A stretch of DNA of 64,000 nt. Source: Rhodococcus sp. 105337 (GTDB lineage Bacteria; Actinomycetota; Actinomycetes; Mycobacteriales; Mycobacteriaceae). The stretch is from assembly GCF_012844225.1 (NCBI RefSeq), contig NZ_JABAGQ010000009.1, positions 62,001 through 126,000 of the forward strand, read 5' to 3'. A program made the position numbers and the translations under genes. Under the pieces are notes generated by a model, which was not told the origin of the DNA, made no database searches, and saw only the letters and a list, made by a program, of their open reading frames with translations. This document shows positions 38,056 to 47,119 of this stretch, in pieces (the first letter of the stretch is position 1; each line of letters opens with the position of its first letter).

Positions 38056-38074
38056 TCCGTCTCCGGAGTCAGTA
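38050..38074. terminator. Hairpin across two convergent stop codons
   Basis: Arms TACTGATCCG (38050-38059) and CGGA-G-TCAGTA (38064-38074) pair over 10 bp with one bulged G and a 4-base loop. The stop codons of both convergent genes lie within the stem. Probable bidirectional terminator. Confidence 0.5.
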
Positions 38075-39826
38075 GGCGTCGCGAACGTACCGCTTCTCCC
38101 GTTTGAGGGCGGTGACGTACTCGGCGGCCTGCTCCGGGCTCATCCCACCGTGCTCGGCGACGATCGCGTGGAGCGCGGCGTCGACATCCTTCGCCATGCG
38201 GGAGGCGTCACCACAGATGTAGAAGTGACCGCCTTCCTCGAGCCACGCGAACAGCTCTGCCCCGTGTTCTGTCATGCGGGTCTGCACGTAGATCTTCTCG
38301 GCCTGGTCGCGGGAGAACGCGAGGTCGAGCCGAGTGAGTACTCCCGACGCTGTGAACTCGGCGAGTTCGTCCTCGTAGATGTAGTCACAGTCGCGGCGCT
38401 GATCGCCGAAGAACAGCCAGTTCTTTCCGGTCGCGCCGCGCGCACGCCGCTCCTGGAGGAATCCGCGGAACGGGGCGATGCCGGTGCCCGGCCCCACCAT
38501 GATCATCGGTGCGGTGTCGTCGGACGGGACACGGAACGCCTTGTTCCTCGTGACGAAGATGCCGACGGTGCCGTCGCCGACGCGGTCCGCGAGGTAGGTG
38601 GAGCACACCCCGTGGCGTTCACGGTCGTCGTCGCCGTACCGCACCGACGCGACGGTCAGGTGTACCGAACCGTCGCACGCGTTCGGACTCGACGAGATCG
38701 AGTACGCACGGTGCTGCAGCGGCCGCAACAGCGACAGGAACTCCTCGGCCGACAGTTCCGGCGCGGGTTCGAGCAGCAGCACGTCGAGTATGTCGCGGCC
38801 CCACAGCCATTCGTCGAGTGCGGCCTTGTCGCCGTGCCGCAGCACATACGTCAATTCCTCGTTGCGGGTGCGCTTCTCGATTTCCTCGAGCAGGTCGACC
38901 GTCGGCGCGGTGATCTCGAAGTCGTAGGTCAGCAGATGCGTGAGGGTGCTGCCGAAACCGGCGGGCACGACGGAACCGTCGAGGCGCAACCGGTCGAGCA
39001 GCGCCCGCACGAGCGCGGGGTCGTTGAGGGGGACGACGTTCAGCGCGTCGCCGGCCTCGTACTCGATGCCCGACTCGCCGAGCGCGAACTCGTAGTGCCG
39101 GATCTCCTTTGCCGAACCCGCACCCGACAGCACCCGGTTGGTCGTGAGCGTCGCGGGGTAGGGGTTCTTGCGGGTCCACTGCGACTTCGGACGTGCCGGT
39201 GCCGTCGGTGCGGGTGCGGCGGGCGCACCCGGCCCCACGATTCCCTCGACCGCCGCGACGAGCGGCATCGTCTCGCTGATCCACGCGGCGGCGGCATCCT
39301 CGAAATCGACGTCGCAGTCGACGCGCGGGACGATGCGCTGCGCTCCGAGTTGTTCGAGACGGGTGTCGAGCAGTTTGCCCGCCTGGCAGAAGCCGTCGTA
39401 ACCGGTGTCGCCGAGCGCGAGGACCGCGAAGTGCATGCGCTCGAGCCGCGGGGCCGACTCCGCGGACAGAGCGTCCCAGAACAACTCCGCGTTGTCGGGC
39501 ATCTCGCCTTCGCCGTACGTGGAGGTGACGATCAGGACGTGCCCGGCCGAGGCGAACCGGTCGAGATCCATATCGTCGAGTGCACACACCACCGGAGCGA
39601 ACCCGTGCGTGCGCGCCGCGGCGGCCGCGTCCTCGGCCACCGCTTCGGCATTGCCCGTCTGCGAGCCGTAGAGCACATGCAGCACGGGCGCCGCACCGGC
39701 GGTTCCGGCATCGTCGGCGGGACCGCCGGAGAACAGCCGGGTCTGCATACCGGCGAGGAAGCCGGCGAGCCACGACCGCTGGTCGTCGGTGAAGGGCGCA
39801 TCGAGTGGGATGAAAGGAGTTGTCAC
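38069..39826 (-). CDS. CysJ-type diflavin (FMN/FAD) NADPH reductase
   Basis: A 585-residue diflavin reductase. Residues ~48-195 form a flavodoxin FMN domain (YGSQTGNAEAVAED, STYGEGEMPDNAELFW). Residues ~215-585 are FAD/NADPH domains (RAYSISSSP FAD motif, GVCSTYLAD, GPGTGIAPFRGFLQER, FFGDQRRDCDYIYEDEL, C-terminal KRYVRDAY). This is the build of the sulfite reductase flavoprotein CysJ, moving electrons NADPH-FAD-FMN. No CysI lies nearby. Instead the GTG start overlaps the stop of the glutamate-synthase-like gene (GTGA), so it is probably that enzyme's electron donor. Actinobacteria usually use ferredoxin-type sulfite reductase. Confidence 0.85.
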   Translation of the reverse strand: MTTPFIPLDAPFTDDQRSWLAGFLAGMQTRLFSGGPADDAGTAGAAPVLHVLYGSQTGNAEAVAEDAAAAARTHGFAPVVCALDDMDLDRFASAGHVLIVTSTYGEGEMPDNAELFWDALSAESAPRLERMHFAVLALGDTGYDGFCQAGKLLDTRLEQLGAQRIVPRVDCDVDFEDAAAAWISETMPLVAAVEGIVGPGAPAAPAPTAPARPKSQWTRKNPYPATLTTNRVLSGAGSAKEIRHYEFALGESGIEYEAGDALNVVPLNDPALVRALLDRLRLDGSVVPAGFGSTLTHLLTYDFEITAPTVDLLEEIEKRTRNEELTYVLRHGDKAALDEWLWGRDILDVLLLEPAPELSAEEFLSLLRPLQHRAYSISSSPNACDGSVHLTVASVRYGDDDRERHGVCSTYLADRVGDGTVGIFVTRNKAFRVPSDDTAPMIMVGPGTGIAPFRGFLQERRARGATGKNWLFFGDQRRDCDYIYEDELAEFTASGVLTRLDLAFSRDQAEKIYVQTRMTEHGAELFAWLEEGGHFYICGDASRMAKDVDAALHAIVAEHGGMSPEQAAEYVTALKREKRYVRDAY

Positions 39827-42800
39827 GCGGGGACTCCCATCGTGGAGGCGAGGACGTTCGGCACGGCGTTGCGGGCGAACAGTTCTTCGTAACCGGGCAA
39901 ACGACCGATCGCGTCCAGATTCTTGCGGCTCTGCAGGAGAATCCAGCCGTATGTTCCGGGGGCGTCGACCGAACGGACATTGCGCAGTGCGAGCGCCTGC
40001 TTGTAGTCGCCGAGTCGCTTGTCGGCGACCAGCACCGCCAGTTGCTCATCGGAGTGATCGGCGATCGCGGCGAGTGCGTACCGTTCGAGCTTCGCGACGA
40101 GGAAGAAATCTTCGGTCAGCAGCAGATTGCGCGCAGCCTTCTGCACCGCCGGATCCGAGACGTCCGACGCGCCCGGAACCTTCTGCAACGCCATCTCCTG
40201 CGCGGCGGCGAGCACCGTGTAGTTGTTCAGCAGCGCATACATCGTTTCGGTATCGGTGCCCGACGGGGTCAGTCCACCGGCGACGGGCGCACCCGAGCGG
40301 TAGCTCTCCTTGAACTTGCGAACCTGATGGGCCACCAGCGCGGACGCAACCTCGGAGGCGAGTTCCCTGCGCGACGCGGCGGCCAGGATCTCGTCGGCGT
40401 CCTGGTACTGCAGCAGTGCGCGCGGCATCCCGTAGGCGAAGTGGTGTTGCTCGGTCTGCCAGTTGTCCAGCAGGAACCGCGCTTTCACAGATCCGGTCGA
40501 CTCGACGTGCAGGTGCAGCAGCCGAAGCACCGCGGCGCTGTGCAGCGCGGCCTGCGGATCGTCTCCGGTGATGGACCCGAGCAGGATCGAGTCGGCGCTG
40601 GCCTTGGCGGGCAGCAGTCCGTCCGGGTCGTACTGGTAGACGAAACCGCCGGACATGCCGTTGCCGAGTCCCTTGCCGAATCCGCCGAGGTTGAGTACCG
40701 CACCGTTGGTCATGTACTCGCAGGCGAAATCGCCGACACCCTCGACCACGGCCGTCGCGCCGGAATTGCGGACTGCGAAACGGTCACCTGCCTCGCCTTC
40801 GACGAGCAACCGGCCACCCGTCGCCCCGAACAGGGCGAAATTGCCGATGAGTACGTTGCCGCCGCGCTCATCGCAGCCGCCGCCGGGGGAGCGCAGGACG
40901 ATCTGCCCGCCGCACTGACCCTTGCCGACACCGTCGTTCGCGGTGCCGATGTGCTCGAGGTGCATACCGTCGTTGCAGAACGCGCCGTACGACAAGCCCG
41001 CCGATCCGGTGGTGGTCACGGTGACGGTGCCGTCGCGCAACCACCCGCGTCCGCGCTCGTCGCGCAGCACGGACGGAAGGTCGTCGAGATCGTCGTGGTT
41101 GAGCATCCGCTCGATGTCGATCGCCAACTGCGCGCCGACGCTCTTGTTGTTGTTCGTCAGGCGGACCCCGTCGCCGAGAGTCACGGTGCTCTCGCGTGCC
41201 TCGATCAGGGCCTCCCGCAGCCGGACGAGCCACGCGTCGTCGAGCGAGTAGTCCTTCTCCAGGTAGACGGGGTTGTCGACGCGAACCTCGGGCAGGACCG
41301 TGAGCATGGCGCGCAGGTCGAGCTGCCCGATGCTCGAGGGGTGATCGAGCAGGTGCAGCAGGTCGGCGCGGCCGCGGGCATCGCGCAGCGAGCGCAGGCC
41401 CAGCCGGGCGAGCACTTCGCGCGTTTCGTGGGCGATGTTGAGCAGGTACTGCGCCATCGCGCGCGGGTCGCCGTCGAAGACCTCGGGATTGGTGGTCAGT
41501 CCGGCGGGGCACTTGACGTTGCAGTTCTTCGCCATGACGCATCCGAGCATCATCAGTGCGGTGGTGCCGAACTCGAAGCTGTCGGCTCCCAGCATCGCGG
41601 AGACGATGACGTCCGACGCCGTCTGGTGCGCACCCGAACACCGGAGCACGACCTTGTCCCGGAGTCCGTTCGCGGTCAGGGCCTGATGAACTTCGGCCAC
41701 GCCGATCTCGGCGGACCGGCCCGCGTACTTCAGGGACGTCACCGAGGCGGCCCCGGTGCCGCCGGTGTTACCCGCGACGTTGATGACATCGGCGCCGGCT
41801 TTGGCGACGCCGACGGCGATCGTGCCGATACCTTCCGAGGACACCAGCTTGACGACGACGCGCACCCGGGCGGCCTTGCAGTCGTGGATGAGCTGCGCGA
41901 GGTCCTCGATGGAGTACGTGTCGTGGTGTGGCGGAGGCGAGATCAGTTCGACACCCGGGGTCGCACCACGGGCGGCCGCGATCTCGACGGTGACCTTCTT
42001 CGCGGGAAGCTGGCCTCCTTCACCGGGTTTGGCACCCTGCGCGATCTTGATCTCGATCTCCTCGAGCATCGGATCGGCGAGGTACCCGGCCCAGACACCG
42101 AAGCGGCCCGAGGCGAACTGCTTGATGCGGGAACCGCGAATCGTGCCGTATCGCGAGATGTGTTCGCCCCCTTCGCCGCAGTTCGACATGCCACCGACCA
42201 TGTTGGTTCCGTGCGCGACGGCTTCGTGCGCGTTGGAGTTCAAGGCGCCGTGGCTCATCGCACCCGAGGCCAGGGCGCGGGTGATCTCGTGTGCGGGCTG
42301 CACCTGATCGAGACGCACCGCCGCCGGAGCCTGACGGACCAGACTCAGGTAGTCGGCGGCGTCACCGACCGCGTGCACGGTGAGAGTGTCGCCGTAGCAG
42401 CGGTGCGAGACGATGGCGTCGCCGAACCGCGCGACGAGAGACCGGCCGAGCGCTGCGGGCCGGGTGTGGTCGTCGGCGAGCGGTCCGGTCAGCCGGAGCA
42501 CGAACTCGTTCTCGCCCACGCGGGCCGCGGCCAGGCCGCGCACGCGCATCGAGTTGTTGCCGTACCGCGAGAACCGCCCCATCTCTTTGTGGAAGTCGTC
42601 GGTGGTGACCGCGTAGGTGATGTCGGACGGCAGGGCGAGGACATCGCGCAACGCGGCGGGGCGGCGGGAGCGCTCCTCCGCCATGGTCCGCGCGAATGCC
42701 CGGTAGCCGGGGGTGATCTCGAAGGAGTCGATTTCGGCGTCGGTCAGTGCCCGGAAACCGCCGTAGCGGTACGCCTCGTCGTCGAGACCGTGTGCGTCGG

Positions 42801-45318
42801 AGAGGCGGTGCAGCGGCAACAGGCGCAGCGAGTCCGTCAGGTCCGGCTCGGCCTCGCGCACGGCGGGCACGGCGAGGGGTTCTTCGGTCATGTCGACGAA
42901 TCCGCGCACGGCGGTGGTGCCGAACGAGTGTCCCGCCCCTTCGGCGCGTTCCTTGAACAGGCCGAGCAGGGGGACGTCCGCCTCGGACTCGACGGCCGCT
43001 GCGCGTCGATGCCAGTCGGCTACGGCTTGGGCGACGGTGGTGAACCCGACGCCTCCCACCGGGGTGGCCACGTTCGGGAACCAGCGGCGGAGCACCTCGT
43101 CGTCGGTGTCGAGGTAACTGGGCTCGAAGAACTCACCGCCGATGTACGACTCGACGGTGCACAGCCCGACCCTGCCCATCGTCTTCATCAGCGACTTCTC
43201 CGCGGCCTTGCGGAACTTCAGGAACGCGAGGTCGGCTTCGTCGCCGTACTTCTCCTCCGCGCGCATCTGCACGGTGAGCGGGTACACCGCCGCAGCGCCG
43301 AAACCGAGGGTCGCGGCGATGTGGTGCGAGGAGCACAGCTGACCGGACTCGACGATCACCGACACGCGCAGGCGCACGCCGTCGTCGATGAGTCGTTGGT
43401 TGACCGCGGCGATCGCGAGAATCATCGGCAGCGCGGCGCGGTCGGTGGCGACGTGCCGGTCGGTGAGGACTGCGATGCCGCCGGACTCCCGCGCGAAATC
43501 GGCGATGCGGTCGGCAACCCCGTCGATCGCGGCGGCGAGTTGAGCGGCGTTGGCCTTCGTGTCGTCGAAAACCGGGGTGTAGAGCATCTCGAAGCGCCGC
43601 ACCGGGGTGTCGGTCTGCTCCCGGATCCGAAGCATCTCGAGGTGGGTCAGGATCGGGGTGGGCACCACGATCTGGGTCGCGGTCGACGACGGTGCGCCGC
43701 TGCCGGGGCGTGCCCCCAGCGCGACGCGCAGGGTCATGCCGTCGGCCTCACGCAGGGAATCGAGCGACGGGTTCGTCACCTGGGCGAAGCGCTGCGAGAA
43801 GTATTTGGCGACACCGCCTTCCTGATCGGACAGGGCGTTGATGGCGTTGCCGTACCCCATTGCGGAGATCCGTTCCTGACCGGATGCGAGCATCGGGTCG
43901 AGCATGAAACGGAACGACTCCTGGTTGAGTGCGTACGAGACGTACCGCTGGTGCCGCCCGAGATCGCCGTTGTAGCGCAGCGGTGAGCCCGCCTTTTCCG
44001 CGGGGACGGGCGGGAGCGCCTCGATCTCACGTCGTGCGGCATCCACCAGAATCGAGTAATCGCGCTCGGCCGCAAGTAGTTCGAGCGCTTCGACGGTGCC
44101 GTACGAGCGCCGGGTGCGATGGTCGAAGTACAGCATGCCGCCGGCCTCGATGCGTCCGCGGCGCAGTACCGTGCTCGGCGCGAAATCGAACTGGCCGGCC
44201 TCCGACGTGACGGCGAGGTAGTCGGCGGTCTCGACGGACCGCAGCGGGCGCAGGCCGAGGCGGTCGAGACGTGCGCCGACCACGGTGCCGTTACCGAAGA
44301 TCAGCGCCGCAGGACCGTCGTTCTTCTCCTCGTAGAGGGAAAAGAACTCGAGCATCGCACGTACCTGCGGGGACAACGTGGTGTCGTTCTCCCACGCCGG
44401 CGGCATCATCTGCACGACGGCGGTGACCAGGTCGAGACGGTCGAATGCGATCCGGGATGCGAGCGTCTGGTCGAAACGGCAACTGTCGGACTGGCCGGGA
44501 GGCCGGACGATGTCGCGGCCCATCGCCCGGGCCAGCGCACCCTCGAACAAACGATTCTTGCGGTCGGTGTTCAGTTCACCGTTGTGCGCCATGAGCCGGA
44601 ACGGCTGCGCCATCGTGGGGTGCGGGTCCGTGTTGGTGGAGAACCGCGTGTGGAAGAACAAGGTGTGGACCGAATGCCGCGGATCCGTCAGGTCCCGGAA
44701 ATAGGGGATGACCTCATGGGAGTTCAAGCGTCCCTTGAGAACCTGGGTACGGCAACTGAGCGAGAGCGGATACAGCCCCGTGAGATCCGGATCGGGGTAC
44801 GCGCGCGCCTCGACATCGAGGAGCACGTCGTGCAGGAGGCGGTCGAACTCGTCGGCCGACGCGCAGGTGCCGGGGCGGGTGAAGATCCACTGCCGGATCG
44901 GCAGTTGGTACCGGACCGCGGCGGCGCGCAGCACGCTGTCGTCGACCGGGACGTCGCGCACCGCGAGGACCGGGATTCCGGCGTGGGCGAGTGCCGCCGA
45001 GATCAGGCTCTCGGCAGCCGCCCGGGCCGCGTCCTCGGAGGGGAGAAAGAAGTTGCCGACGCCGAAATGATCTTGCTGCAGCGGTGTTCCGGCGATCGCG
45101 GAGAAGAATTCCACCGACAGGTCCACGTTGACGCCGGCCCCGTCGCCGACCCCCTCCGCGGACATGCCGCCCCGGTGCGGGACCACGCAGAGCGCCTCGT
45201 GCCCGCGAGTGAGGATGTCGTGGGTCCGCACACCGTCTTTGCGGGTGATGAAACCTACGCCGCAGCTGCTCTTGTCGAGACTGCTGTCGTACAGCCCGGT
45301 GTTGTCGGCGTTCGTCAA
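39823..45318 (-). CDS. Glutamate synthase (GOGAT) large-subunit-like protein, divergent and extended
   Basis: A 1831-residue GltB relative. The order is: an N-terminal glutamine amidotransferase with nucleophile Cys19 after a short propeptide ([11 protein letters not shown]) and [27 protein letters not shown]; a central domain; an FMN/2-oxoglutarate domain ([17 protein letters not shown]); a Fe-S loop [11 protein letters not shown]; and a GXGXG beta-helix ending [17 protein letters not shown]. The Fe-S loop is C-x5-C-x3-C, one residue shorter than the usual C-x5-C-x4-C. About 180 extra helical residues follow the normal end. No gltD is adjacent. The TTG at 45318 with GGAGGG is preferred over an upstream frame start at 45396. 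Confidence 0.85.
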
Positions 45319-45694
45319 CGGAATGCCCTCCTCGGCGGATCGAGTGCGACGTCGTCCGACAGTGAGGGACGCGAAGGGGGAGGCGAAGATTCGCACTGAT
45401 CCGCGATCGCACAGAGCTCTGCCGGAGACGGTGATGAAAGGCAGACGACGTTGTCCGGATGTGCCGAGCGATGCGACGGTGGAGCGCGCGAGCAGCGAAA
45501 CAAATTGTAGCCTACGTGTTAACGCCGTGTTCGGCGCCGTGCATCACACCCGCCGTGCATCACACCCGCCGCGCTCACCTCCGGATGTCCCGCCCGGCAG
45601 CGCGGGCACCGATCCCGTCGAACAGCCGGCCCACCGACGCGACTTCCTTCGATACGCTGCGCCGGAGAGACGCACGACACACACGGAGGCGCGC
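45319..45694. other. 376-base divergent promoter region of the GOGAT-like and aldehyde dehydrogenase genes
   Basis: No gene is supported. It contains a minus-strand -10-like TACAAT (45504-45509), without a good -35, about 185 bases before the GOGAT-like start. It also contains an exact 16-bp tandem duplication (45536-45567) and the CGGAGG ribosome site of the aldehyde dehydrogenase. Frames that enter this region are continuations of neighbouring frames with no ribosome site. Confidence 0.5.
45536..45567. repeat. Exact 16-bp tandem duplication
   Basis: GCCGTGCATCACACCC occurs at 45536-45551 and immediately again at 45552-45567. It lies about 130 bases upstream of the aldehyde dehydrogenase. 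It may be a doubled regulator site or a slipped-strand duplication. Confidence 0.7.

Positions 45695-47119
<1,425 letters not shown>

Follow-up and report, generated by a model that had tools for sequence, protein, structure and literature searches.

Glutamate synthase (GOGAT) has a central part in ammonia assimilation, and a locus of Rhodococcus sp. 105337 raises the question of which reductase can supply such an enzyme with electrons. The locus lies in a stretch of 64,000 nucleotides (assembly GCF_012844225.1, contig NZ_JABAGQ010000009.1, positions 62,001 to 126,000), which is referred to here as the window, and comprises the gene of a long-form glutamate synthase large subunit, termed B, followed by the gene of a CysJ-like diflavin reductase, termed J, where the small subunit GltD would be expected. 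The two open reading frames and the GTGA overlap that joins them, noticed earlier from the nucleotide letters in what we call the original prediction, were confirmed from the sequence. A profile search of the contig carrying the window gave no match to PF14691 (the GltD Fe-S domain) or to the NIR_SIR domain, which agrees with the earlier remark that no GltD-type subunit or CysI is close by. In classical NADPH-dependent glutamate synthase (GltS), electrons run from flavin adenine dinucleotide (FAD) over two [4Fe-4S] clusters and one [3Fe-4S] cluster to flavin mononucleotide (FMN), according to PMC8097209. The evidence assembled below indicates that B and J very probably form a GOGAT in which J is the reductase, and that the pair is a genuine and widespread variant of this enzyme.

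To define the range of this variant, a scan of GTDB genomes was carried out, in which 80 loci were kept from at least 581 candidates encoding any B relative, with selection on similarity to B alone; comparisons over 81 rows comprise window B and these 80 loci. Structurally, B contains GATase_2, Glu_syn_central, Glu_synthase and GXGXG domains in this order, which are the four domains of GltB, and it shares the glutaminase cysteine, the FMN-domain residues and the three cluster cysteines with the NADPH-dependent GltBD enzymes of known structure (A. brasilense 1ea0, 2vdc and 6s6s; B. subtilis-type 7mfm). The glutaminase residues Cys19, R225, N246, G247 and D278 are invariant in 81 of 81 rows, as are the equivalents of Synechocystis E903, K966, Q969, K972, Q978 and R992, which we take to be the ligands of 2-oxoglutarate; the Synechocystis numbering was reproduced exactly in the alignment of B with solved GltS structures. 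In contrast to these likenesses, window B is only 38-41% identical to three normal GltBs, and against the NCBIfam model of classical GltB (NF008730) it scores 1033.1 bits, under the cut-off of 1047, while the normal GltB copy of the host reaches 1682.8 bits with the same model.

Two peculiarities of B had been pointed out beforehand, and both proved to be properties of the family. The three cluster cysteines are invariant in all 81 rows, and their spacing is C-x5-C-x3-C throughout, instead of C-x5-C-x4-C, whereas the cluster loop of the host's normal GltB has the x5/x4 spacing (CVMMRVCHLDTC). B also extends approximately 190 residues beyond the normal GltB end; counted after position 1640, this extension measures 187-212 residues in 80 of 81 rows, the remaining row ending with its contig. 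A third peculiarity had been missed: the alignment with solved GltS structures breaks into two principal segments separated by approximately 150 additional residues, which places an insertion ahead of the FMN domain (approximately residues 800-970). Neither the insertion nor the extension had a credible relative in Pfam or the PDB, and among 103 matches of the extension search, the longest of 1899 aa, there was no fusion protein of B and J.

The description of J as a complete FMN/FAD/NADPH diflavin reductase was borne out, since its flavodoxin, FAD-binding and NAD-binding domains were all matched, in the FMN-FAD-NADPH order of CysJ (6efv, 9c91). Such a protein could simply belong to an assimilatory sulfite reductase as its flavoprotein and happen to adjoin B, as its 598.5 bits with the CysJ model TIGR01931 and the annotation of many named J relatives as sulfite reductase subunit alpha would suggest; however, this score falls under the model's cut-off of 668.15, J is under that cut-off in all 21 genomes tested, and in a tree from which 11 near-copies and short rows out of 80 were omitted, the J proteins cluster together (68 rows, support 93) and separately from 19 CysJ sequences, to which J is 39-42% identical. 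The presence of a separate sulfite reductase argues in the same direction. All 20 B-carrying gammaproteobacterial genomes tested encode, besides J, a CysI that exceeds its family cut-off and is accompanied by an adjoining CysJ, this CysJ being over its cut-off in 19 of 20 and split over two open reading frames in the remaining one (G029). No CysI over the cut-off was found in the genome of the window (G000) or in G001, G002, G005, G007, G010, G012, G036 and G046; the protein of G000 nearest to CysI matches the ferredoxin-nitrite reductase model best, below that model's cut-off too. By gene context and tree position, J probably does not belong to the sulfite reductase, and its service to a distant sulfite reductase, which the original prediction had named as a possible refutation, is very unlikely.

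The host genome also contains a second CysJ-like flavoprotein (G000:C30:240884-242572, L093), which is 46% identical to J and is part of a larger open reading frame with another partner, 1357 residues long, presumably a nitrate reductase fusion; its branch in the J tree is long and its position there unsure. CysJ-like modules thus occur in other settings.

If J serves B, the two genes would be expected to travel together, and their conservation as neighbours had been recognized as a point on which the proposal could fail. The 80 loci comprise 28 from Actinomycetota (assigned from record titles), 29 from Alphaproteobacteria, 18 of Pantoea/Erwinia/Mixta type (one of them labelled Enterobacter ludwigii), three of SAR92/HTCC2207, one from Lampropedia and one from a metagenome-assembled genome of Verrucomicrobiales. 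J stands directly after B in 79 of these 80 loci, and in the exception (L086) the contig ends within B; in L075, J is itself truncated by the contig edge. The distance from the stop of B to the start of J ranges from about -7 to +189 nt. Across the window and 78 loci (79 rows), pairwise distances of B and J correlate at 0.962, against 0.114 for the best of 1000 permutations, although shared ancestry of whole genomes would raise such a correlation too.

A further indication comes from genomes in which B occurs without a classical counterpart. Co-occurrence was examined in 50 genomes, namely the host genome and the source genomes of 49 of the 80 loci, with GltB-type proteins counted by PF04898 and the GltD Fe-S domain by PF14691. 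B is the sole PF04898 protein in 16 of the 50 (15 of Pantoea/Erwinia/Mixta type and SAR92 G020), and 14 of these 16 lack PF14691. From the Pantoea family as defined by GTDB, 149 genomes were drawn and 94 gave a match: 88 have normal-type matches only, and B is present in six, alone in five and together with a normal GltB in G136. Three further B-only genomes of this family are without PF14691, which is present in G136 and in four normal controls, bringing the B-only genomes without this domain to 17 of 19. A distant GltD, another foreseen objection, is by this measure absent from the B-only genomes tested, apart from two Erwinia genomes, G033 and G034. As an observation in its own right, the normal gltB is fragmentary or interrupted by stops in at least G077, G100, G103, G153 and G184 of the Pantoea family.

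The gene neighborhoods point to the same conclusion. In a survey of neighbouring genes that left out open reading frames under 80 aa, each of the 18 Pantoea/Erwinia/Mixta-type loci has an arcB-like gene upstream of B, and in 17 of the 18 sspB-sspA lie downstream of J, the exception being L041. The interval bounded by these arcB and sspB genes contains gltB-gltD in L103, from a normal-GltB genome, and in L099 of G136, and it contains B-J also in G162 and G113 (L101, L102); G168 (L100) shows the arcB side, with no sspB match in the 3.4 kb past J. The three SAR92-type loci carry B-J between aroB and hemE, and among eight normal-GltB relatives sampled from 74 other matching genomes of that order, gltB-gltD follows aroB in all eight, with hemE after gltD in five and not found within 3.5-4.2 kb past gltD in three. 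The labels arcB, sspB, aroB and hemE come from reading the sequences rather than from a family search. Taken together, these two arrangements place B-J at the gltBD site in two lineages, a result with which direct replacement and gain-and-loss are both compatible. In contig C1 of G136 (L098, L099), B-J lies away from gltBD, which keeps its home position; this genome is possibly a snapshot before the loss of gltBD, as would be expected of an intermediate.

Part of the function has already been shown by a knockout. P. ananatis AJ13355 is reported to lack a close homologue of the E. coli GOGAT, and its gltB (PAJ_RS19710) is given as 64% identical to an Agrobacterium large subunit (PMC12364357, PLoS One 2025); the same source, citing Hara et al. 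2012, states that a gltB knockout makes P. ananatis auxotrophic for glutamate. The statement in the original prediction that no characterised example was known was therefore too strong. The terms gltD, small subunit, cysJ and flavoprotein are absent from the main text of PMC12364357, and within the open-licence literature, which here means mainly titles and the beginnings of abstracts and does not include Hara et al. 2012, no diflavin partner of glutamate synthase is named. In P. ananatis LMG 2665 (G024), the long form is the only GltB-type protein, and in global alignments it is 68.2% identical to one Agrobacterium B, 38.4% to one enterobacterial GltB and 38-40% to three normal GltBs. Considering these identities and the sole occurrence of B, the gene knocked out in P. 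ananatis is taken to be B.

Several observations weigh against a B-J glutamate synthase of this kind. The equation of PAJ_RS19710 with B depends on the quoted identity and on the single GltB type of LMG 2665. Erwinia G033 and G034 each encode two PF14691 proteins on contigs other than that of B, and the one scanned, from G034, is YgfT/AegA-like and over the cut-off of a GltD-family model. Three of 18 genomes of the host genus (G197, G199, G203) have no B. Moreover, the proposed comparison with normal gltBD showed that 34 of the 50 genomes, like that of the window, carry B plus one or two normal GltBs, so that another role is possible there. One such role would be the use of an oxoacid other than 2-oxoglutarate to form a different amino acid or amide, an alternative also left room for by the original prediction and compatible with the different loop, insertion and extension of B. 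Against it stand the invariant residues taken to bind 2-oxoglutarate, the occurrence of B as the sole GltB-type protein at the gltBD site in the Pantoea/Erwinia-type and SAR92 genomes tested, and the glutamate auxotrophy of the knockout (PMC12364357, as cited above), and we regard it as very unlikely. Because the invariant residues and the auxotrophy coincide, glutamate synthase is the most likely activity of the pair, with 2-oxoglutarate as the probable substrate rather than that of another amidotransfer reaction.

Electron supply is the other point at issue, since a ferredoxin or a free flavodoxin could in principle serve B, with J merely reducing that carrier. J does resemble reductases that hand electrons on, and the ferredoxin-dependent enzyme (Synechocystis 1llw and 1ofd) functions without GltD (PMC8097209), as B would in our reading. 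Yet the stretch between GEGGE and IKQ, which in ferredoxin-dependent GltS spans approximately 35 residues by structure numbering and includes the ferredoxin loop, measures 12 residues in B in 80 of 81 rows, the pattern not being found in one; this argument is weakened by one enterobacterial GltB that also has 12 residues. J also possesses a flavodoxin domain of its own, and an NADPH reductase gene directly adjoins B. Dependence on a separate carrier is accordingly judged unlikely, if slightly less so than a different product.

Under the preferred reading, with J as the reductase of B, the pair would convert glutamine, 2-oxoglutarate and NADPH to two glutamates. B would hydrolyze glutamine at Cys19 and channel the ammonia to 2-oxoglutarate, and the resulting imine would be reduced by the FMN of B. 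J would accept a hydride from NADPH onto its FAD and pass single electrons on through its FMN, so that the simplest chain would be NADPH - FAD(J) - FMN(J) - cluster(B) - FMN(B), in which the cluster of B is probably [3Fe-4S]. J would in this way do the work of GltD without the two [4Fe-4S] clusters of the latter, as the original prediction had proposed; the conserved pairing, the residues, the genomes with B as sole GltB and the synteny at the gltBD site support that proposal, while direct donation from J to B is what we infer from sequence comparison. B differs from GltB that binds GltD in having a tighter cluster loop, an insertion and an extension, which makes these the first candidates for the docking surface, and either of the two family-specific segments, insertion or extension, may be where J docks.

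For the host Rhodococcus, B-J is probably a second glutamate synthase beside a normal gltBD. The 4.46 Mb assembly contains elsewhere a complete normal gltB with an adjoining gltD, which the original prediction had missed, and the one occurrence of PF14691 in the genome adjoins that gene. A survey of 18 genomes of the host genus found normal GltB in 18 and long-form B in 15, including G206 (an assembly 75% complete), in which B is split over two frames. The nearest named matches of B are from Rhodococcus, at 97% identity in the extension and at 92% over the full length to R. coprophilus. An in-frame GTG upstream of the TTG at 45318 offers an alternative start and would give a B of 1857 aa. The features of the locus are collected in the table.

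Features of the B-J locus (positions in the window; residues numbered within each protein)
Feature	Position	Strand	Remark
B, long-form glutamate synthase large subunit	39823..45318	-	TTG start, 1831 aa
J, CysJ-like FMN/FAD/NADPH diflavin reductase	38069..39826	-	GTG start, 585 aa
GTGA overlap, B stop and J start	39823..39826	-	4 nt
B glutaminase domain, residues 19-421	44056..45264	-	nucleophile Cys19
B central domain, residues 458-732	43123..43947	-	PF04898
B insertion, approximately residues 800-970	42409..42921	-	without counterpart in classical GltB
B FMN/synthase domain, residues 983-1308	41395..42372	-	domain match and alignment
Fe-S loop C1260-x5-C1266-x3-C1270	41509..41541	-	spacing common to 81/81 family members
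B GXGXG domain, residues 1416-1585	40564..41073	-	PF01493
B C-terminal extension, residues 1640-1831	39826..40401	-	family-specific
J flavodoxin (FMN) domain, residues 51-182	39281..39676	-	Flavodoxin_1
J FAD-binding domain, residues 218-411	38594..39175	-	FAD_binding_1
J NAD(P)-binding domain, residues 443-548	38183..38500	-	NAD_binding_1

The neighborhoods further contain indications of a link to iron. Upstream of B, scored with a 19-position consensus that we take to represent DtxR/IdeR, a stretch agreeing at 13 or more positions occurs in 19 of 28 actinobacterial loci (e.g. L032, L046 and L029), about 107-201 nt before the start of B as extrapolated from the match, a count that overstates independent events because many of these loci are closely related. 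Shuffling each region 200 times with preservation of dinucleotides gave an expectation of 0.18, and a score of at least 13 of 19 was reached by 17 of 1120 random 300-nt segments drawn from these loci. No such stretch is present in the window (9 of 19) or in its closest Rhodococcus relatives L009-L013 (9 or 10), and in 52 non-actinobacterial loci no score for a Fur-box consensus upstream of B went beyond that of 14% of random stretches. A HemS-like gene directly follows J in 21 of the 76 loci that extend 1.2 kb or more past J (L022, L023, L026, L027, L028, L032, L033, L046, L051, L057, L058, L059, L061, L066, L068, L069, L070, L071, L078, L085 and L088), and one precedes B in L077 (4882-5841), the 22nd locus with a HemS/ChuX-like neighbour. 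The Pfam HemS cut-off was reached by nine of 11 neighbours scanned, L071 scoring 21.6 of the 24 needed and L059 giving no match. No HemS-like gene lies beside the pair in the window, where J is followed by a convergent gene of the major facilitator superfamily. The hemE gene beside J in the SAR92-type loci was considered as a haem link and dropped, because in relatives it follows gltD as well.

An iron-saving role is plausible for part of the family, and the assignment of B-J as a glutamate synthase is independent of it; in the window's Rhodococcus, the pair perhaps serves iron-poor conditions. A more far-reaching proposal is put forward tentatively, as possible rather than probable: B-J may represent a third, iron-saving class of electron donation to glutamate synthase (approximately 3 versus 11 irons per protomer), induced through DtxR/IdeR in iron-starved Actinomycetota, with J perhaps also feeding the HemS-like haem protein next to it, and it may have spread horizontally and displaced gltBD for good at least twice.

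Signs of horizontal spread are present in the J tree, in which Erwiniaceae-type rows join Lampropedia, a betaproteobacterium. Relatives of B with 63-71% identity are encoded on large plasmids of Sinorhizobium, Shinella, Neorhizobium, Ketogulonicigenium and Tsukamurella, a location that would fit such spread.

The upstream regions show some further elements. In the rhizobial loci L018, L019, L020, L021, L027 and L063, a TTGACT was seen by eye near a palindromic element resembling GTCAG-N5-CTGAC. Actinobacterial leaders (window approximately 45319-45480; L026, L031, L083) have a weak element, GCTCMAC..CG, roughly 60-100 nt before the start. With regard to a shared leader RNA in Actinomycetota, an alignment of 23 leaders has a mean column identity of 29%. 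Rfam gave no match to window 44800-46200 at E up to 5 and, at gathering scores, a single tRNA and nothing else in seven related loci.

If B-J acts as proposed, a glutamate synthase fed by a CysJ-like protein would alter the picture of bacterial NADPH-dependent GOGAT as GltB plus GltD (as drawn in PMC8097209), and it would account for the absence of a GltD Fe-S domain from the tested genomes of Pantoea and from most of those of Erwinia. J, commonly named a sulfite reductase, would then need another name. The pair constitutes a natural test of the need of glutamate synthase for low-potential clusters, and it offers a possible, directly testable tie between iron supply and nitrogen assimilation.

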